A DNA stretch of 64,000 nucleotides, from positions 496,001 to 560,000 of the forward strand of contig NZ_CP092109.1 in NCBI RefSeq assembly GCF_025263685.1. Direction: 5' to 3'. How positions within the stretch are numbered: the first letter of the stretch is position 1; each line of letters begins with the position of its first letter. The translations under genes and the position numbers were made by a program. Shown in pieces: positions 3,985 through 55,826 of the stretch. The notes beneath the pieces were generated by a model, which saw nothing but the letters and a program-made list of their open reading frames with translations, searched no databases and was not told the origin of the DNA. The stretch comes from Geoalkalibacter halelectricus. GTDB taxonomy: Bacteria > Desulfobacterota > Desulfuromonadia > Desulfuromonadales > Geoalkalibacteraceae.

Positions 3985-5586
3985 ATGGCAGTCAAAACCC
4001 TCGCTCTGAAAAATTCCGCCAAGCCGACACCGCCCGCCGAGGGCAAGCCGGCCGCGCCGCACAGCCGGCGGCTGGCCGCCATCGACATCGGCACCAACTC
4101 GATTCGCTCCATCGTCGTCGAGGCGCGCCCGGGCGGCGAATTCCAGGTTCTCGATGACGAAAAAGCCACGGTGCGCCTCGGCGAAGGGCTCACCGAGCGC
4201 GGCGAAATCGCGCCGGCGGCCTGGGCCAGGGCCTGTGAAGCCCTGGAGCGCATGACCAAAATTCAGCAGGGCTACGGAGTGTCGGCGGTGGAAGCAGTGG
4301 CCACCAGCGCGGTGCGCCGGGCGCGCAACGGCGCGGCCTTTGTCGCCGCGGTCAGGCAGGACCTGGGCCTGGAGATCGCCGTCATCTCCGGCGAGGAAGA
4401 AGCCGAGCTGGCTTTTCTCAGCGCGCGCAGCAGCTTCGAGATGGACAACCTGCCCTACGCCCTGGTCGACATCGGCGGCGGCAGCGCCGAAATCATCACC
4501 ACCATGGGTGCGCACATCGAAGACCTCTTTTCCCTGGAATTGGGCGCGGTGGTCCTCACGGAAAAATTTCTGCCGCGCGATCCCATCGGCGCCGAGGATC
4601 TCCAGAGCCTGCGCAAATATGTGCGCCGCACCCTGAAAAAGCACCTCGCCGGCCACGACACGCCGGTGCAATGCCTGATCGGCTCGGGCGGCACCCTGAC
4701 GACCATCGCCGCCATGGTCATGGCGCAGCGCCGCGAGCAGTTCAACAGCCTGCAGGGCTACGAGGTGCTGCGCTCCGAGGTGGTGCATCTGCTCGCCATG
4801 CTGGCGCGCAAGCCCCTGCGCGAGCGACGCGCCGTATCGGGGCTGGCGCCTGAACGCGCCGACATCATCGTCGCCGGCATGACCGTGGTCGATGAGATCA
4901 TGCGCCGCTTCGGCGCCAACATCCTCAAGGTCAACGAACGCGGCATCCGCCACGGCCTGATCCTGCGCAGCCTGGAAAAACACGGCCTGGCGCCCCAGAC
5001 GAAGCCCCCCGCCGACTGGCGCTCGACGGTGCTCAATTTCGCCCGCTCCTGCCATTTCAACGAAGACCACGCCGACCAGGTGGCGCACCTCGCCCTGGCG
5101 ATTTTCGATGCCCTCGCCCCCCAATTCGAGCTCGACGCGCGGCGCCGCCAACTGCTCGAAGCCGCCGCCCTGCTGCACGACGTGGGCTATTTCATCAATT
5201 ATGCGCGCCACCACAAGCACAGCTATCATCTGATCCGCCACGCCAACTTGTTCGGCTTCAGCCCCCGCGAGCAGGAGATCGTCGCCAACGTGGCGCGCTA
5301 CCACCGCCGCGCCCTGCCCAAGAAAAAACACGACAACCTCCAGGGCCTCAGCGCCGAGGATCAGACCACCGTCAAGCGCCTGGGCGGCATCCTGCGCCTG
5401 GCCGACGGTCTCGACCGGCGCCGCGCCCGCATGGTCAAAAGCATCGACTGCCGCCTCGATGGGCGCGAGGTGAGCATCCGTTTGAGCGGCGCGGAGGATC
5501 TGTCGGTGGAAATCTACGGCGGGTCGAGCAAAAGCGATCTGTTCGAGGAAGCCTTCGGCCGCAAGGTCAGGCTCTTGTCCGATTAA
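3985..5586 (+). CDS. ppx: Ppx/GppA exopolyphosphatase with C-terminal HD-like domain
   Basis: This is a 533-residue member of the ASKHA-fold Ppx/GppA phosphatases, which hydrolyse terminal phosphate from polyphosphate and/or pppGpp. The N-terminal phosphate-binding motif AAIDIGTNSIRS is at about residues 31-42, ISGEEEAELAF (about 135-145) carries the catalytic glutamate region, and DIGGGSAEI follows at about 162. The second half is helical and contains an HD pair (LLHDVGYF, about 396-403) followed by HHKHSYHLIRHA, as in long Ppx proteins. It follows sixA closely. Whether it acts on polyphosphate, pppGpp or both cannot be read from sequence. Confidence 0.85.
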   Translation: MAVKTLALKNSAKPTPPAEGKPAAPHSRRLAAIDIGTNSIRSIVVEARPGGEFQVLDDEKATVRLGEGLTERGEIAPAAWARACEALERMTKIQQGYGVSAVEAVATSAVRRARNGAAFVAAVRQDLGLEIAVISGEEEAELAFLSARSSFEMDNLPYALVDIGGGSAEIITTMGAHIEDLFSLELGAVVLTEKFLPRDPIGAEDLQSLRKYVRRTLKKHLAGHDTPVQCLIGSGGTLTTIAAMVMAQRREQFNSLQGYEVLRSEVVHLLAMLARKPLRERRAVSGLAPERADIIVAGMTVVDEIMRRFGANILKVNERGIRHGLILRSLEKHGLAPQTKPPADWRSTVLNFARSCHFNEDHADQVAHLALAIFDALAPQFELDARRRQLLEAAALLHDVGYFINYARHHKHSYHLIRHANLFGFSPREQEIVANVARYHRRALPKKKHDNLQGLSAEDQTTVKRLGGILRLADGLDRRRARMVKSIDCRLDGREVSIRLSGAEDLSVEIYGGSSKSDLFEEAFGRKVRLLSD

Positions 5587-15341: not shown

Positions 15342-15772
15342 ACCAGCCCCAACCCGCCCCGCGCCCGACCTGGACGCCGCGCATCCTGCTGCGCTATGCG
15401 CTCCTGCAAATCCCGGCTTTGGCGTTGCTGATCCTGGGCATGCTGCTGGTAAGGCACTGGTGGGATCTGCCCCCGGCCCTGCCCTGGCTGATCGTGGGCG
15501 GCTGGCTGCTCAAGGACATCGTGCTTTTTCCCCTGGTATGGCGCTCCTACGACCCCGACCCCCAGCCGCACGGCAACAGCCTGCTCGGCTGCGAGGGGCT
15601 CGTGGTGCGGCCCCTCGAACCCGCCGGCATGGTGCGCGTGCACGATGAATTATGGCGCGCGCGCCTGCCCGAAGGCGCCCCGGCCCTGCCCGGCGGCCGC
15701 CGGGTGCGGGTTTGCGGCCGCGAGGGACTGACCCTGATCGTGGAGGCGGTCGAAGAGGAATCCCCGCCATGA
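15338..15772 (+). CDS. NfeD-like membrane protein
   Basis: This 144-residue protein has two hydrophobic segments (YALLQIPALALLILGMLLV and PWLIVGGWLLKDIVLFPLV). A compact C-terminal domain of OB type follows, LLGCEGLVVRPLEPAGMVRVHDELWRA... RVRVCGREGLTLIVE, matching short NfeD-family proteins. These often partner a membrane protease or stomatin, but neither is adjacent here. It starts in the ATGA overlap with the helicase gene and ends in an ATGA overlap with the permease gene, so the three are co-translated. Confidence 0.75.
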   Translation: MNQPQPAPRPTWTPRILLRYALLQIPALALLILGMLLVRHWWDLPPALPWLIVGGWLLKDIVLFPLVWRSYDPDPQPHGNSLLGCEGLVVRPLEPAGMVRVHDELWRARLPEGAPALPGGRRVRVCGREGLTLIVEAVEEESPP

Positions 15773-18123
15773 CCACGGCCATGCTGCTCGCCCTGGCTAT
15801 TCTCGTCCTGGCCCTGATTTTGCTCATCAGCGGACGGGTTCCCGCCGAGGTGGTCGCCATGCTGGTGCTCGGCGCCCTGCCGGTGGCCGGCCTGGTCACC
15901 CCGGCCGAAGCCATTGCCGGCTTCAGCAGCCCGGCGGTGATCACCCTCTGGGCCATTTTTATTCTCAGCGGCGGGCTGACCCGCACCGGGGTCGGGGATT
16001 TGCTCGGTGCCCAGGTTCTGCGCGTCGCCGGTCACGGCGAGGCCGCCCTGGTGGCGGTGATCATGGCCACCGCCGCGGTACTCTCCGCAGTCATGAACAA
16101 CGTCGCCGTGGCGGTGCTCATGCTGCCGGTGGTCATGGATATCGCGCGCAAAAGCGGCAACGCCCCGTCGCGCCTGCTGATGCCCCTGGCCTACGGCGCC
16201 CTGCTCGGCGGGCTGATGACCCAGATCGGCACCCCGCCCAACATCCTGGTCAGCGTCGCCATGGAGGAACAGGGACTGACCCCCTTCGCCATGTTCGACT
16301 TCACTCCGGTGGGCGGTGCCGTGCTGCTCGCCGGCATCGCCTTCATGACCCTGATAGGCCGTCACCTGCTGCCCCGCCGCGATCCGGCCGGGGCCTCGCT
16401 GCATCCCGAGGTCAACCTGCGCGATCGCTACGATCTGCGCAATCGCATGTTTCTCATGGCGGTCCCTCCCTACTCCGACCTTTCCGGCAAAACCCTGGCT
16501 CAGTGCCGCTTCGGTCCCGCCCTGGGCCTGGCGGTACTCGAAATTCTGCGCAACGGCCGCACCCTCATGGCGCCCGGTTCCGAGACCGAGATCCGCAGCG
16601 ACGACCGGCTGCTGGTTCAGGGACGCCTGGAGCGCATGGAGGAACTGCGCGGCTGGCGGGATCTGACCATCGAGCAGGAGGGTTGCGGCCCCGATCAGTT
16701 GATTTCCGAGAACATCGGCATGGCCGAGGCACAGTTGGCCCCGGATAGCGAGCTGATCGGCCTGAGCCTGAGCGAGGCGCGTTTTTTCACCCGCTTCGGC
16801 GTCAATGTGCTCGGCGCCCTGCGCGGCACCCCGGCGCAGGCTGTGAGCCTGGGAGATTACCGCTGCGCCGCCGGGGATGTCCTGCTCGTGCAGGGGCCCA
16901 AAAACACTCTCGAGGACCTCGGACAGGAAAGGAATTTCACCCGTCTGACGCACCTGAACCGCGCCGAAGTGACCTCTCACCGCGCTTTGCAGCAGGGTCT
17001 TCTAACCCTCAGGCTCAGCGCCGCGGGCGGCTTGGCCGGGCGCACCCTGCACGACTGCGCCCTGGGCGACGCCCTGGGCCTGCGGGTGGTGGGCATCCTG
17101 CGCGAGCAACAGTGCATCCTGCTGCCCACACCCGAGGACACCCTCGAGGGTGACGATCGCCTCGCCGTGACCGGGCGCCGCGAGGATCTGATGCTGCTCC
17201 AGGGCCTGGAGAGGCTGGAAATCCAGCGCGAGTTCTCGCCCGAGATAACCAACCTGGAATCCGCCGAGGTGGGGCTGATCGAGGTGGTTCTCTCGCCGCA
17301 TTCGCGCCTGGCGGGCAAGACCCTGCGCGACCTGCACTTTCGCGAGAAATTCGGGCTCAGCGTCATCGCCCTGTGGCGCGGCGGGCGTGCCCTGCGGACG
17401 GGATTGCGCGACCTGCCCCTGCAGTTCGGCGACGCCTTGCTCATCTACGGTTCGCGTGCTCGCTTCACCCAACTGGCGCGCGATGGCGATTTTCTGGTGC
17501 TGACCCAAGACGTTCAGGAACCGCCCCGGCGCGACAAACTGGGACGCTCCCTGAGCATTCTGACTGCGGTGCTGATTCCGGTGCTGCTCGGCTGGCTGCC
17601 CATCTACATTGCCGCGGTCCTCGGCGCCGCAGCCATGATTCTCAGCGGCTGCCTGAGCATGAACGAGGCCCATCGCGCCATCGAATGGAAGGCGATCTTT
17701 CTTATCGCCGGCCTGCTGCCCCTGGGCACGGCCCTGGACCAAAGCGGCGCGGCCGGGCTGCTCGCCGAGACCCTGACCGCGACCGTGGCACCCTTCGGCC
17801 CCCAGGCCCTGCTCGCCGCCCTGATCCTGTTCACGGCAGTCGGAACCTGCTTTCTGCCGCCCGCCGCCCTGGTGGTGCTGCTGGTCCCCATCGTCTTCAA
17901 CATCGCCGCGCCGACCGGCCTCTCGCCCGAGGCCCTGAGCATGGGCATCGCCATGGCCTCGGCCAGTCTCATGTCGCCCTTTGCCCATCCCGCCAACATC
18001 CTGGTCATGGGCCCCGGCGGCTATCGCTTCCGCGACTATCTCAAGGTCGGCATCCCCTTGACCCTGGTGGTGCTCGCCACCATCATGCTGGTATTGCCCC
18101 TGGTCTGGCCCCTGCAGGCCTAG
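15769..18123 (+). CDS. SLC13/DASS-type permease with four RCK_C (TrkA-C) domains
   Basis: This is a 784-residue membrane transporter of the SLC13/divalent anion-sodium symporter group. N-terminal membrane segments include MNNVAVAVLMLPVV and GTPPNILVSVAM, the SNT-type substrate-site hairpins. A large cytoplasmic insert from about residue 218 to 580 holds four tandem RCK_C-like units, each of the type SGKTLAQC...GDRLLVQG; these bind small ligands. A second membrane half follows, with FLPPAALVVLLVPIV and MSPFAHPANILVMGPGGY. The substrate may be sulfate, phosphate or a dicarboxylate. Its stop codon TAG is the first triplet of the inverted-repeat element. Confidence 0.85.
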   Translation: MTTAMLLALAILVLALILLISGRVPAEVVAMLVLGALPVAGLVTPAEAIAGFSSPAVITLWAIFILSGGLTRTGVGDLLGAQVLRVAGHGEAALVAVIMATAAVLSAVMNNVAVAVLMLPVVMDIARKSGNAPSRLLMPLAYGALLGGLMTQIGTPPNILVSVAMEEQGLTPFAMFDFTPVGGAVLLAGIAFMTLIGRHLLPRRDPAGASLHPEVNLRDRYDLRNRMFLMAVPPYSDLSGKTLAQCRFGPALGLAVLEILRNGRTLMAPGSETEIRSDDRLLVQGRLERMEELRGWRDLTIEQEGCGPDQLISENIGMAEAQLAPDSELIGLSLSEARFFTRFGVNVLGALRGTPAQAVSLGDYRCAAGDVLLVQGPKNTLEDLGQERNFTRLTHLNRAEVTSHRALQQGLLTLRLSAAGGLAGRTLHDCALGDALGLRVVGILREQQCILLPTPEDTLEGDDRLAVTGRREDLMLLQGLERLEIQREFSPEITNLESAEVGLIEVVLSPHSRLAGKTLRDLHFREKFGLSVIALWRGGRALRTGLRDLPLQFGDALLIYGSRARFTQLARDGDFLVLTQDVQEPPRRDKLGRSLSILTAVLIPVLLGWLPIYIAAVLGAAAMILSGCLSMNEAHRAIEWKAIFLIAGLLPLGTALDQSGAAGLLAETLTATVAPFGPQALLAALILFTAVGTCFLPPAALVVLLVPIVFNIAAPTGLSPEALSMGIAMASASLMSPFAHPANILVMGPGGYRFRDYLKVGIPLTLVVLATIMLVLPLVWPLQA

Positions 18124-18289
18124 GAGGCTGTCGGACTATCCATGAGCCGGCTGCAAATCCGGCTGTTTGGCCCGGATTCCGGCTCCTTTTCGGCACGTAG
18201 CTACGGCTATGCACTCTCAAAGGAGCCAAAATCCGGTCTGAAACATCCAAATTTTCGCTTCGGCCCGGATAGTCCGACAGCCTCCTAGG
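18119..18289. mobile_element. Small inverted-repeat element, full copy (MITE-like)
   Basis: The ends are perfect 23-bp inverted repeats: 18119-18141 pairs with 18267-18289, with core GGAGGCTGTCGGACTATCC. Inside there is a nested inverted repeat, GGCTCCTTT (18181-18189) and AAAGGAGCC (18219-18227), and a 9-base direct repeat GGCCCGGAT (18169-18177 and 18262-18270). There is no open reading frame of note. The left TAG is the stop codon of the permease gene. Related sequences are found at 39096-39169 and 29529-29550. It may be a non-autonomous transposon or a structured terminator-like repeat. Confidence 0.75.
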
Positions 18290-18393
18290 GGCCGTTGTTG
18301 CCGCGAACTATGAACTTGACGAATAAAGTGGATTTAATTACATTCGACAAAGATCCCTATTCCGCATTTCCCGCACCGCGCAAGGAGCTCGCC

Positions 18394-18753
18394 ATGACCA
18401 AGAAAGGCACCGACAAGCGCACCCAGAAACGCCGCAACACCATTTACTACCTGGAAGTGTTCGATCTGGAGTCGGGTCGGTTGCTGGGGCGGCTGGTCGA
18501 CATCACCGTCGCTGGCATGATGCTGATCAGCGAATCGCCCATCACTCCGGATCGCACCTACAAGTGCCGCATGTCCCTGCCCGCCGATATCCTCGGACGC
18601 AGCAACATCCTCTTCGACGCCACCTGCGTCTGGAGCCGCAAGGCACTCAACAGCGATTTCTTCGAGGCGGGCTTTCGCTCCCTGATCGCCGATCCCGGCG
18701 ACATCGACGCCATCGAAATGCTCATCCAGCGTTTTGCCTTCAGCGACCTCTGA
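18394..18753 (+). CDS. PilZ domain protein
   Basis: This 119-residue protein has PilZ features: an Arg-rich N-terminal segment KRTQKRRN followed by a beta-barrel containing LVDITVAGMMLIS, the D/N-x-S/T-x-x-G element. PilZ domains bind cyclic di-GMP and switch motility, biofilm or secretion functions. The start at 18394 is chosen because AAGGAG lies upstream; the frame is open to 18295. The spacing between RxxxR and DxTxxG fits c-di-GMP binding, but I have not modelled it. It stands alone between the inverted-repeat element and a membrane protease gene. Confidence 0.7.
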   Translation: MTKKGTDKRTQKRRNTIYYLEVFDLESGRLLGRLVDITVAGMMLISESPITPDRTYKCRMSLPADILGRSNILFDATCVWSRKALNSDFFEAGFRSLIADPGDIDAIEMLIQRFAFSDL

Positions 18754-29507: not shown

Positions 29508-29528
29508 ATTGCACTTTCCCTTCGTCCA

Positions 29529-29550
29529 GGATAGTCCAACAGCCTCCTAG
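29529..29550. repeat. Solo end of the inverted-repeat element
   Basis: GGATAGTCCAACAGCCTCCT differs at one base from the right end of the full element at 18267. Read on the minus strand it begins TAGGAGGCTGTTGG, and that TAG is the stop codon of the GntR/FCD regulator. No second end is visible nearby. Confidence 0.7.
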
Positions 29551-38183: not shown

Positions 38184-39098
38184 ATGAACCAGGAAGAAAT
38201 CAAGGCAGAGATTCGCCGCCTCGCCCGCGAGCGCAACGCGCTGATCCTGGCGCACAATTATCAGCGTGATGAAATCCAGGAGATCGCCGATATCACCGGA
38301 GACTCCCTGGCGCTATCCATGGAAGCCGCGCGCACCGACCGCGACGTCATCGTGTTTTGCGGCGTGCACTTCATGGCCGAGAGCGCCGCGATTCTCGCCC
38401 CCGACAAGATCGTGCTGCTGCCGCGCCCCGACGCCGGCTGCCCCATGGCCGACATGGTCACCGCCGAGAGCCTGCGCGCCCTCAAGGAGCGCCACCCCGG
38501 CGCGGTGGTGGTCACCTACGTCAACTCCAGCGCCGCGGTCAAGGCCGAGAGCGACATCTGCTGCACCAGCTCCAACGCCATCAACGTAGTGCGCTCCCTC
38601 GACGCCGAGGAGGTCCTGCTGGTTCCCGACCGCAACCTCGGCCACTACATCGCCTCCCACGTCGACAAGCGCTGCCATTTCTGGGACGGCTACTGCCCCA
38701 CCCACGAGCGGCTCAAGGTCGAGGAGATTCGCCAGGCCCTGGATGAACACCCCGACGCCTTGTTCATGGCCCATCCAGAGTGCCCGCCGGACATTCTGGA
38801 GTTGGCCCACCACATCTGCTCCACCAGCGGCATGTATGAATTCGCCCGCTCCAGTCCGGCGAAAAAATTCATCGTCGGCACGGAAATGGGCATCCTCTAC
38901 CGGCTGCGCAAAGAAAATCCCGACAAGGAATTCATCCTGCCCAGCGCCACGCTCATCTGTCCCAACATGAAGCTCACGTCCCTGGAATCGCTGCTGCGCT
39001 CCCTGCAGACCATGAGCCCGGAAATCACCGTGCCCGCGGATGTGCGCGAGCGGGCCAAAAACGCCCTCGACCGGATGCTTGCCGTACCGCGCGACTAG
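38184..39098 (+). CDS. nadA: Quinolinate synthase NadA
   Basis: This 304-residue [4Fe-4S] enzyme condenses iminoaspartate with dihydroxyacetone phosphate in NAD synthesis. Signatures are [53 protein letters not shown] and CSTSGM, which include the three cluster cysteines. AAAGAG precedes the ATG. The stop TAG (39096-39098) is also the first triplet of a deleted copy of the inverted-repeat element. No nadB or nadC is adjacent. Confidence 0.95.
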
Positions 39099-39169
39099 GG
39101 GGCCGGCGGACGATCTATGAGCCGCCTGAAAATCCGGCTGCTGGGCCCGGATAGTCCGACAACCTCGCA
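39096..39169. mobile_element. Internally deleted copy of the inverted-repeat element
   Basis: This 74-base copy aligns with the full element (18121-18287) end to end, except that the 93 bases between the two GGCCCGGAT repeats are missing. It reads TATGAGCCGCCTGAAAATCC, then GGCTGCTGGGCCCGGATAGT, then CCGACAACCTC. The ends have several substitutions and no longer form a perfect inverted repeat. Its left TAG is the nadA stop codon. Confidence 0.7.
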
Positions 39170-47247: not shown

Positions 47248-47422
47248 GTAGGATGCGGTGAGGGACGAACCGCATCAATCTAAACGGTCTTAAAAACGAT
47301 GCGGTTCGTACCTCACCGGCATCCTACCCTCTACGGTCCTGACGGTACATTGTGGTCGGGGTTGCCGCATCAATCCAAACGGTCTTAAAAACGATGCGGT
47401 TCGTACCTCACCGGCATCCTAC
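47248..47422. repeat. REP palindromes upstream of the RAYT gene (two units)
   Basis: Unit one (47248-47327) is a large imperfect palindrome: GTAGGATGCGGTGAGGGACG pairs with the reverse of TTCGTACCTCACCGGCATCC, with the CCGCATC/GATGCGG core inside. Unit two (about 47330-47422) repeats the right half (CAATCCAAACGGTCTTAAAA, then ACGATGCGGTTCGTACCTCA) after a different left part (CTCTACGGTCCTGACGGTAC). These are BIME-like repeats bound and probably mobilised by the RAYT enzyme. Confidence 0.85.
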
Positions 47423-47487
47423 GGGATATGGATTTGCCGAATCGATTCGTGGATATGGTTTTGTTTTGATTGCTTGGGGGGAGGGGG

Positions 47488-48021
47488 ATGACCAATTACC
47501 GCAGGGTAAAAATCGCCGGAGCAACCTATTTTTTCACGGTTAACTGCGCCGAGCGCCATGGCAATCACTTGTTGATTGATAACATCGACTTGCTGCGCCA
47601 GGTGACCCGCAATGTAAAAAATGATCACCCTTTTACCATCGATGCCATGGTCGTTCTCCCTGAGCACCTGCATTGCATCTGGACCTTGCCAGAAGGGGAT
47701 GCCGACTACAAAACTCGATGGGCACTGATCAAAGCGGGTTTTTCACGTCTAATTCCATTGGGTGAAGGGCGCTCTGAAAGTCGCATCAAAAGAGGCGAAC
47801 GTGGGATTTGGCAACGTCGCTATTGGGAACACCTGATCCGCGATGATTTGGATTATCAACGGCATGTCGATTATATCCATTGGAATCCGGTTAAGCATGG
47901 CTGGGTTACACAGGTAAAAGATTGGCCCTATTCGAGTTTTCATGTATTCGTGAAGCAAGGCCGGTGTCCGCTGGATTGGGCGGGAGAACCGGAGAAAATG
48001 GGTGATGGTCGGGGTATGTGA
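47488..48021 (+). CDS. REP-associated tyrosine transposase (RAYT, Y1/HUH family)
   Basis: This 177-residue single-strand DNA nuclease of the Y1/IS200-like HUH family has the metal-binding HLH in VVLPEHLHCIWTLPEG. The catalytic Tyr candidates are in DLDYQRHVDYIHWNPVKHGW, with the WNPVKHG block typical of RAYTs. RAYTs are single-copy, domesticated transposases that cut and spread REP palindromes. GGGGGAGGGG lies before the ATG at 47488. It is flanked on both sides by REP units. AT content is higher than in neighbouring genes. Confidence 0.9.
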   Translation: MTNYRRVKIAGATYFFTVNCAERHGNHLLIDNIDLLRQVTRNVKNDHPFTIDAMVVLPEHLHCIWTLPEGDADYKTRWALIKAGFSRLIPLGEGRSESRIKRGERGIWQRRYWEHLIRDDLDYQRHVDYIHWNPVKHGWVTQVKDWPYSSFHVFVKQGRCPLDWAGEPEKMGDGRGM

Positions 48022-48024
48022 TTC

Positions 48025-48199
48025 GTAGGATGCGGTGAGGAACGAACCGCATCAATCCAAACGGTCTGAAACCGATGCGGTTCGTGCCTCACCGGCATCC
48101 TACGCTCTACGGTCCTGACGGTACATTGTGGACGGGGGTTGCCGCATCCAATCCAAACGGTCTGAAATCGATGCGGTTCGTGCCTCACCGGCATCCTAC
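48025..48199. repeat. REP palindromes downstream of the RAYT gene (two units)
   Basis: A full palindrome spans 48025-48102: GTAGGATGCGGTGAGGAACG to TTCGTGCCTCACCGGCATCC. A second unit follows to 48199 with the CTCTACGGTCCTGACGGTAC left part. The order matches the upstream block. The downstream pair shares GTGCCTCACC where the upstream pair has GTACCTCACC, so each block was probably homogenised separately. Confidence 0.85.
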
Positions 48200-48202
48200 G
48201 CT

Positions 48203-48285
48203 CTGGATTGGGCGGGAGAACCGGAGAAAATGGGTGATGGTCGGGGTATGTGATTCGTAGGATGCGGTGAGGAACGAACCGCATC
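48203..48285. repeat. 83-bp direct duplication of the RAYT 3' end plus REP half
   Basis: Bases 48203-48285 repeat 47971-48053 without visible change, offset 232 bases. The duplicated segment holds the last 51 bases of the RAYT gene and the left arm of a REP unit, and then ends inside the palindrome. Confidence 0.9.
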
Positions 48286-48302
48286 GATTTAAAACGAAAA
48301 CC

Positions 48303-48377
48303 ATGGCAAACAAATCAACCGAGCAAACCTTCCAAAACGACATCATTCACCAGATGGTCGCCAACGGCTTGCAGTGA
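48303..48377 (+). pseudogene. Remnant resembling the N-terminus of a type I restriction R subunit (HsdR)
   Basis: ATG at 48303 encodes 24 residues, MANKSTEQTFQNDIIHQMVA then NGLQ and a TGA. This resembles the opening of some type I restriction endonuclease R proteins (E/Q-x-x-FQ-DII-x-x-M-x-x-NGW). The frame stops where the conserved Trp would be expected, and no restriction gene follows. It is probably a scar left by deletion of an hsd locus at the RAYT/REP site. Confidence 0.45.
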
Positions 48378-55316: not shown

Positions 55317-55826
55317 ATGCCCGAACTTGCCGGAACCAAGACCGAACAGAATCTCAAGGAAGCCTTTGCCGGAGAATCCCAGGCCAACCGCAAATACCTG
55401 GCCTTCGCCAAAAAAGCCGACCAGGACGGCCATCCCCAGGTCGCCAAGTTGTTCCGTGCCGCGGCGGCCGCCGAAACCGTGCATGCCCATGCGCACCTAC
55501 GTGCCCTCAAGGCCATCGGCTCCACCGAGGAGAATCTGCGCGAGGCCGTCAGCGGCGAGACCCACGAATTCATGAACATGTATCCGGACATGATCGTCGC
55601 GGCGGAGCAGGAAGGGTTCACCGAGGCCCTGCGCAGCTTCAAGTTCGCCAACACCGTCGAGAAGGTTCACGCCGACCTCTACCAGAAAGCCCTCGACAAC
55701 CTCGGCAACAATGCCCCGGTCGACTATTACGTCTGCCAGGTCTGTGGTCATACCCTCGAAGGGGAACCCACCGGACCCTGCGAGGTCTGCAACGCCGGCA
55801 AGAACGCCTTTGTAAAGATCGACTGA
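55317..55826 (+). CDS. Rubrerythrin
   Basis: This 169-residue peroxide-reducing protein of anaerobes has a ferritin-like di-iron domain (NLKEAFAGESQANRKYLAFA, AAAAAETVHAHAHLRAL, EEnLREAVSGETHEF) and a C-terminal rubredoxin-like site (VCQVCGHTLEGEPTGPCEVCNAG) with two CxxC pairs. AGGAAGG lies upstream of ATG. It has its own promoter and terminator, consistent with an oxidative-stress response. Confidence 0.93.
   Translation: MPELAGTKTEQNLKEAFAGESQANRKYLAFAKKADQDGHPQVAKLFRAAAAAETVHAHAHLRALKAIGSTEENLREAVSGETHEFMNMYPDMIVAAEQEGFTEALRSFKFANTVEKVHADLYQKALDNLGNNAPVDYYVCQVCGHTLEGEPTGPCEVCNAGKNAFVKID

Follow-up and report, generated by a model that had tools for sequence, protein, structure and literature searches.

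Why should a short palindromic element without a gene lie exactly on the stop codons of its neighbours? In Geoalkalibacter halelectricus, whose genome is a single contig of 4,125,859 bases, such an element directly follows a permease gene in the stretch analysed here (the window, 64,000 nucleotides at 63% GC), and related sequences at 39096 and 29529 do bear the same relation to the stops of nadA and of a GntR gene, as a preliminary description of this DNA had reported. That description considered the element MITE-like and proposed that it inserts at stop codons, supplies them, or is kept as a combined stop and terminator unit. The answer that we favour, and that we hold to be very probably correct, is that it is a MITE, a gene-less 161-bp full-length hairpin mobilised by a transposase that acts in trans, cutting at CTAG and duplicating it, and that its link with stop codons follows from this target. 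The relevant features of the window are as follows.

18124..18284, plus strand: body of the full-length copy of the element, 161 bp, no gene
18120..18123, plus strand: left copy of the CTAG target duplication, whose TAG (18121-18123) is the stop of a CitMHS-type permease ORF
18285..18288, plus strand: right copy of the CTAG target duplication
18124..18141, plus strand: left terminal inverted repeat, 18 bp
18267..18284, minus strand: right terminal inverted repeat, 18 bp, matching the left repeat perfectly
18142..18266, minus strand: interior of the full-length imperfect hairpin, where G.U on the minus strand is the prevailing wobble pair of the family
39099..39166, plus strand: degenerate, shortened copy of the element (68 bp), its right duplication eroded
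39095-39098: left CTAG of the 68-bp short form, containing the stop codon of nadA
29515..29546, plus strand: fragment with the right end of the element, next to the CTAG at 29547-29550
29547-29550: CTAG beside the right-end fragment, containing the TAG stop of a minus-strand GntR/FCD gene

The permease ORF upstream belongs to the CitMHS family, starts at 15652 or 15781 and ends at 18123. The inverted-repeat element described at 18119-18289 is present, and its ends occur beyond chance both in the window (four matches with at most three mismatches, against 0.15 expected) and in the genome, where 87 exact matches to CTAG plus the end compare with none for the reversed pattern. Its limits, however, had to be redrawn. 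The inverted ends exist, but the perfect 23 bp attributed to them consist of a true 18-bp repeat, the CTAG duplication and one outer pair (18119/18289) that matches by chance, and the length given as 171 bases shrinks to a body of 161 bp (18124-18284), which indeed has no gene inside. The permease TAG, read earlier as the first triplet of the element, lies at its edge but is part of the left CTAG duplication, outside the body.

Beyond the window, 60 stretches (281 kb) were fetched and, together with the window, yielded 61 delimited paired copies, a set smaller than that of the whole genome. These counts exclude lone or truncated ends, with which the total becomes 71 elements at up to two mismatches, and also exclude copies found later, a full one at 2108898 and short ones at 3680314 and 3964259. 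Identity was scored for 40 of the 96 first-look candidates and is 96-100% throughout. Approximately full length are 48 of the 61 paired copies; the others are shorter, chiefly 68 and 87 bp, and apparently arose by deletion between short direct repeats. The controls for the 87 exact genome matches and for the search of ends in same-genus relatives were clean; a reversed 17-mer control (19 + 24 matches) is inflated, as it differs from the real CTAG-end by only two bases. The idea that lone ends have a strand bias along the chromosome was considered and rejected, most such ends belonging to pairs. Three partial copies (L088, L089 and L090; G000 4066305, 4072873 and 4125519) have an identical 71-bp left flank in common and diverge at different points within the element, points that resemble recombination or deletion junctions. 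At G000 3902842-3903025 and 55552-55717, copies adjoin another end-like sequence with one CTAG in common, as if the target duplication left by an earlier copy had itself been the site of insertion.

Identical 4-bp flanks are found in 41 of the 61 paired copies and identical 5-bp flanks in none, and outside CTAG the flanks of these copies contain no repeat above chance. CTAG stands on both sides of 40 copies, on the left only of 12, on the right only of 7 and on neither side of 2; we read the 21 copies in which one flank (19) or each flank (2) departs from CTAG as cases of decay. The origin of the paired CTAG can be seen in a second inverted-repeat family of about 170 bp, with GTGTCCCGTGCGGTTAGTC as one of its ends, which itself contains CTAG and is a landing site for the element. 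Its members are the following.

L057 (about 1922-2250), L059 (about 4520-4690), L079 and L085; G000 1628002, 1695393, 3515012 and 3851426: members of the second repeat family

The empty members (1695393 and 3515012) have a single CTAG at the corresponding place, and the filled ones read CCAG-element-CTAG and CTAG-element-CTAG, that is, three of their four flanks are CTAG and one is CCAG. Because the empty paralogous sites have one CTAG and the filled ones two, CTAG is a 4-bp target duplication. The two copies in this family, at 1628002 and 3851426, occupy the same place in opposite orientation. By this duplication model, the three window sites too would have had CTAG prior to insertion; in relatives, the counterparts of these sites (about 74-85% DNA identity) have TAA or TGA stops rather than CTAG.

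The element is thus MITE-like, as the preliminary description had it: it is short and gene-less, has perfect inverted ends of 18 bp, is flanked by a 4-bp CTAG duplication judged against paralogous empty sites, and is present in many near-identical copies. The YTAR duplication of the IS5 group is found here as CTAG, and the element behaves like a CTAG-duplicating derivative of IS5 type, a kinship that would be one of behaviour. IS5 itself is about 1.2 kb long. In E. coli it makes a 4-bp Py-T-A-Pu duplication, most commonly CTAG (15 of 24 sites listed in PMC5493358), and a CTAG/YTAR duplication is given for IS5 both there and in PMC10359306. What the present element has in common with IS5 is the 4-bp CTAG duplication; IS5, however, is autonomous, whereas the present element is without a transposase and has CTAG alone as the duplication at its intact sites. 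A closer parallel in form is MITEPsy1 of Pseudomonas syringae pv. phaseolicola, which according to PMC3189936 is 100 nt long, has 18-nt repeats, inserts at CTAG or YTAA with duplication of the site, and is suggested by its authors to originate from ISPsy2. The repeat length and the insertion at, and duplication of, CTAG are alike in the two, but the present element is longer (161 bp), has another repeat sequence, is order-wide and has no partner that we could find. The IS701 family also duplicates 4 bp (PMC2266710), and this genome has one IS701-type transposase gene. No ends in common with the element were found for that gene. Geobacter uraniireducens, presumably of the same class of bacteria as the hosts of the present element, harbours the MITE Chunjie. 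It is likewise a MITE with many intergenic copies, differing in size (178-235 bp, against 161 bp) by its published description (PMC10969869).

The element is presumably mobilised by a DDE-type transposase that acts in trans and has an IS5-like target choice. Searches with PF01609 (11 genomes) and PF05598 (10 genomes), several of these genomes being drafts, brought to light no autonomous element with the same ends, either here or in the relatives sampled: the six PF01609 matches of this genome, four of them typed to family, have ends unrelated to the element, and none of 40 further transposase loci is bounded by a pair of element-type ends. Among 10 other genomes that carry copies, 5 have no PF01609 match at all; four of these are drafts 78-85% complete and one is rated 100% complete. 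A candidate autonomous element in G092, with exact inverted ends 1.98 kb apart, proved to be two full copies around an unrelated gene. The same genome has the shortest form seen, in which two end repeats are separated by a few bases (L211, 782-825). At about 4.075 Mb of G000 (L149), an IS1182-family element has ends (GAGGTTGTTGAAAAAGTC) lying within a longer inverted repeat, as if it had been inserted in a palindrome.

The family extends well beyond this host. Of 277 genomes of the class, 51 contain the 18-bp end at up to one mismatch, compared with 7 of 277, once each, for the reversed pattern. Within the same order, Desulfuromonadales, 49 of 136 genomes have the end, 8 of the 49 through one match only; the count is a minimum, since the copies in G007, with their diverged ends, escape the pattern; in the other orders of the class it appears in 2 of 141 genomes with one match each, which is the control level. 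The exact 36-base left end was found in Pelobacter sp. UBA6093, Desulfuromonadales LH_M59 and Desulfuromonadaceae SMBSF57, in a search from whose results the window's own record may be absent. Among full copies from other genomes, 44 of 59 measure 161 bp, a prevalence that is partly one of choice as most were selected by the spacing of their ends; at least one flank is CTAG in 51 of the 59, and both flanks are in 21. Plasmids and phages gave no match at the blastn level, and the exact 19-base end is absent from IMG/VR. We found no description of this MITE family in the open-licence literature, and the family, spread across the order, is apparently undescribed so far.

A further property of the family bears on what is being maintained. 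Together with its CTAGs the element forms one imperfect hairpin, with -96.8 kcal/mol on the plus and -110.8 kcal/mol on the minus strand (z -10.5 and -13.2); a cloverleaf fold was considered and rejected in favour of this full-length form. Might the minus-sense hairpin itself, as structured RNA or ssDNA, be under selection and merely spread by transposition? We regard this as possible but doubtful. Compensatory changes occur in 10 of 40 pairs among 24 aligned copies, and the covariation score of 0.198 exceeds both that of shuffles (0.111) and that of slid structures (at most 0.056), although related rows can inflate it; in the terminal repeats such changes are expected, since a single transposase has to recognise both ends. 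With a strand-neutral pair list and 27 lineages, partly from the same genomes, A.C on the plus strand (G.U on the minus) dominates 23 pairs of the interior stems and G.T dominates 6 (p = 0.002; sign-flip p = 0.0008), whereas the terminal repeats have no such skew (3 A.C and 6 G.T, p = 0.51). Counting wobble on pairs derived from the minus-strand fold is biased, and that count was not used; four identical foreign copies were dropped from the alignment (59 to 55). In interior pairs that are at least 20% Watson-Crick, A.C amounts to 270 and G.T to 44, and the near balance of non-wobble AA/CC (35) and GG/TT (26) indicates an A.C excess beyond base composition alone. The minus strand also folds better in 55 of 55 foreign copies and 47 of 47 of the host's own, but so it does in 256 of 275 mononucleotide shuffles, which reproduce roughly one third of the difference in energy. 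Among the host's 47 copies, recent substitutions (G>A 20, C>T 19) run in the same direction, 25 toward A.C and 17 toward G.T, without reaching significance (p = 0.28), so that a mutation bias is not evident, but the contrast between the older 23:6 and the recent 25:17 is not significant either (p = 0.12). A role in host transcripts finds little encouragement, as minus lies in the direction of flanking transcription at 13 copies and plus at 22, with no significant bias. The one copy scanned contains no promoter-like site, and Rfam gives no match near the gathering score for window 18000-18400.

We therefore treat selection on a minus-sense single strand, RNA or ssDNA, as a lead, not a proof. 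Its strongest version, a transposable structured RNA or ssDNA gene whose minus-sense 161-nt hairpin is selected across the order, with G.U favoured on that strand only and copies spread by CTAG-specific insertion, seems to us on the whole unlikely. If it were true, the hosts without a match to an IS5-like transposase would imply that the element is mobilised by an enzyme not yet recognised or passes through a single-stranded intermediate. The one-sided wobble makes it possible to test whether a MITE has been selected in its single-stranded form.

We return to the stop codons, and to the reading in which a CTAG-specific transposase suffices. That the element prefers or supplies stops, or is kept as a stop-plus-terminator module, is suggested by the three of three sites in the window and by a very stable hairpin, and the former is true as far as the window goes. 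Genome-wide, however, the stop of a called gene falls within the duplication of only 16 of the 61 paired copies, in one of them on both strands, and in 19 of the 71 elements when lone ends are included; the share is 13 of 48 among full-length copies and 12 of 40 among those with CTAG intact on both sides. Most copies thus lie away from stops, an outcome that the preliminary description had itself set against its reading, although the 45 of 61 without a called stop are an upper bound because the home-made codon-model caller misses genes in some stretches. In the same DNA with the elements masked, free CTAG occurs 31 times in 242 kb of genic and 55 times in 93 kb of intergenic sequence and 11 times at stops, the 11 including the nadA site, which was left unmasked. 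Against the 11 of 66 free non-genic CTAGs, the 16 of 61 filled ones give an odds ratio of 1.8 (p = 0.20), and with the nadA site removed the free share is 10 of 65 (p = 0.19). The excess is not significant, although a weak preference for stops may exist, and insertion at stop codons can be seen as a by-product of the CTAG target.

Nor is there support at the three window sites for stops that come with the element, whose ends are absent, at up to one mismatch, from three same-genus genomes. In these relatives the permease stops at the same codon with TAA, TAA and TGA and nadA with TGA, while in G003, the only relative stretch covering the site, the GntR gene ends at the same codon with TGA; the left gene of the copy with stops on both strands also ends at the same codon (TGA) in G003. 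Genes of relatives that lack the element thus end at the same place, and the insertions are younger than these stop positions. Relatives with the same TAG and no element had been named in the preliminary description as a refuting outcome; this is borne out for the position of the stop but not for the codon, which is TAA or TGA and never TAG. A role in termination fares no better: relative to the gene that it ends, the element is in the same orientation in 10 cases and in the opposite one in 7, and a search of one copy (window 18050-18360, both strands) for an intrinsic terminator, a stem followed by a T run, gave no site. We consider the reading as a whole, that the element prefers or supplies stops or is a stop-plus-terminator module, very improbable. 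More improbable still is a REP/BIME-type repeat spread by a single-strand transposase (TnpA-REP, Y1), for while the element is intergenic, palindromic and high in copy number and its strand-asymmetric wobble would fit ssDNA movement, it has a clean 4-bp duplication, two terminal repeats and both orientations at one site, and to our knowledge REPs make no target duplication.

There is, then, no clear sign that the element seeks or makes stop codons, and insertion at CTAG would account for its position. A transposase acting in trans would cut CTAG, insert the element and duplicate the CTAG. CTAG is scarce within genes, where insertions would presumably be harmful and lost, whereas a gene that ends in C-TAG would be a harmless target, as the duplication would restore the TAG and leave the protein unchanged. 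A CTAG target, its scarcity in genes and the restoration of TAG by duplication would together produce an association with stop codons. In a window of 63% GC, CTAG is found mostly between genes and at C-TAG stops, and mobile elements placed exactly on stop codons can in this way be explained by target choice and selection.

Two minor observations concern neighbouring DNA. At the atpC-GntR junction of G003 (C1, about 876663-876824, L132) the spacer is without the ends of the element and about 120 bp longer than that of the window. Within the window, at 47248-48303, direct and inverted repeats are clustered around GTAGGATGCGGTGAGG.ACGAACCGCATC.
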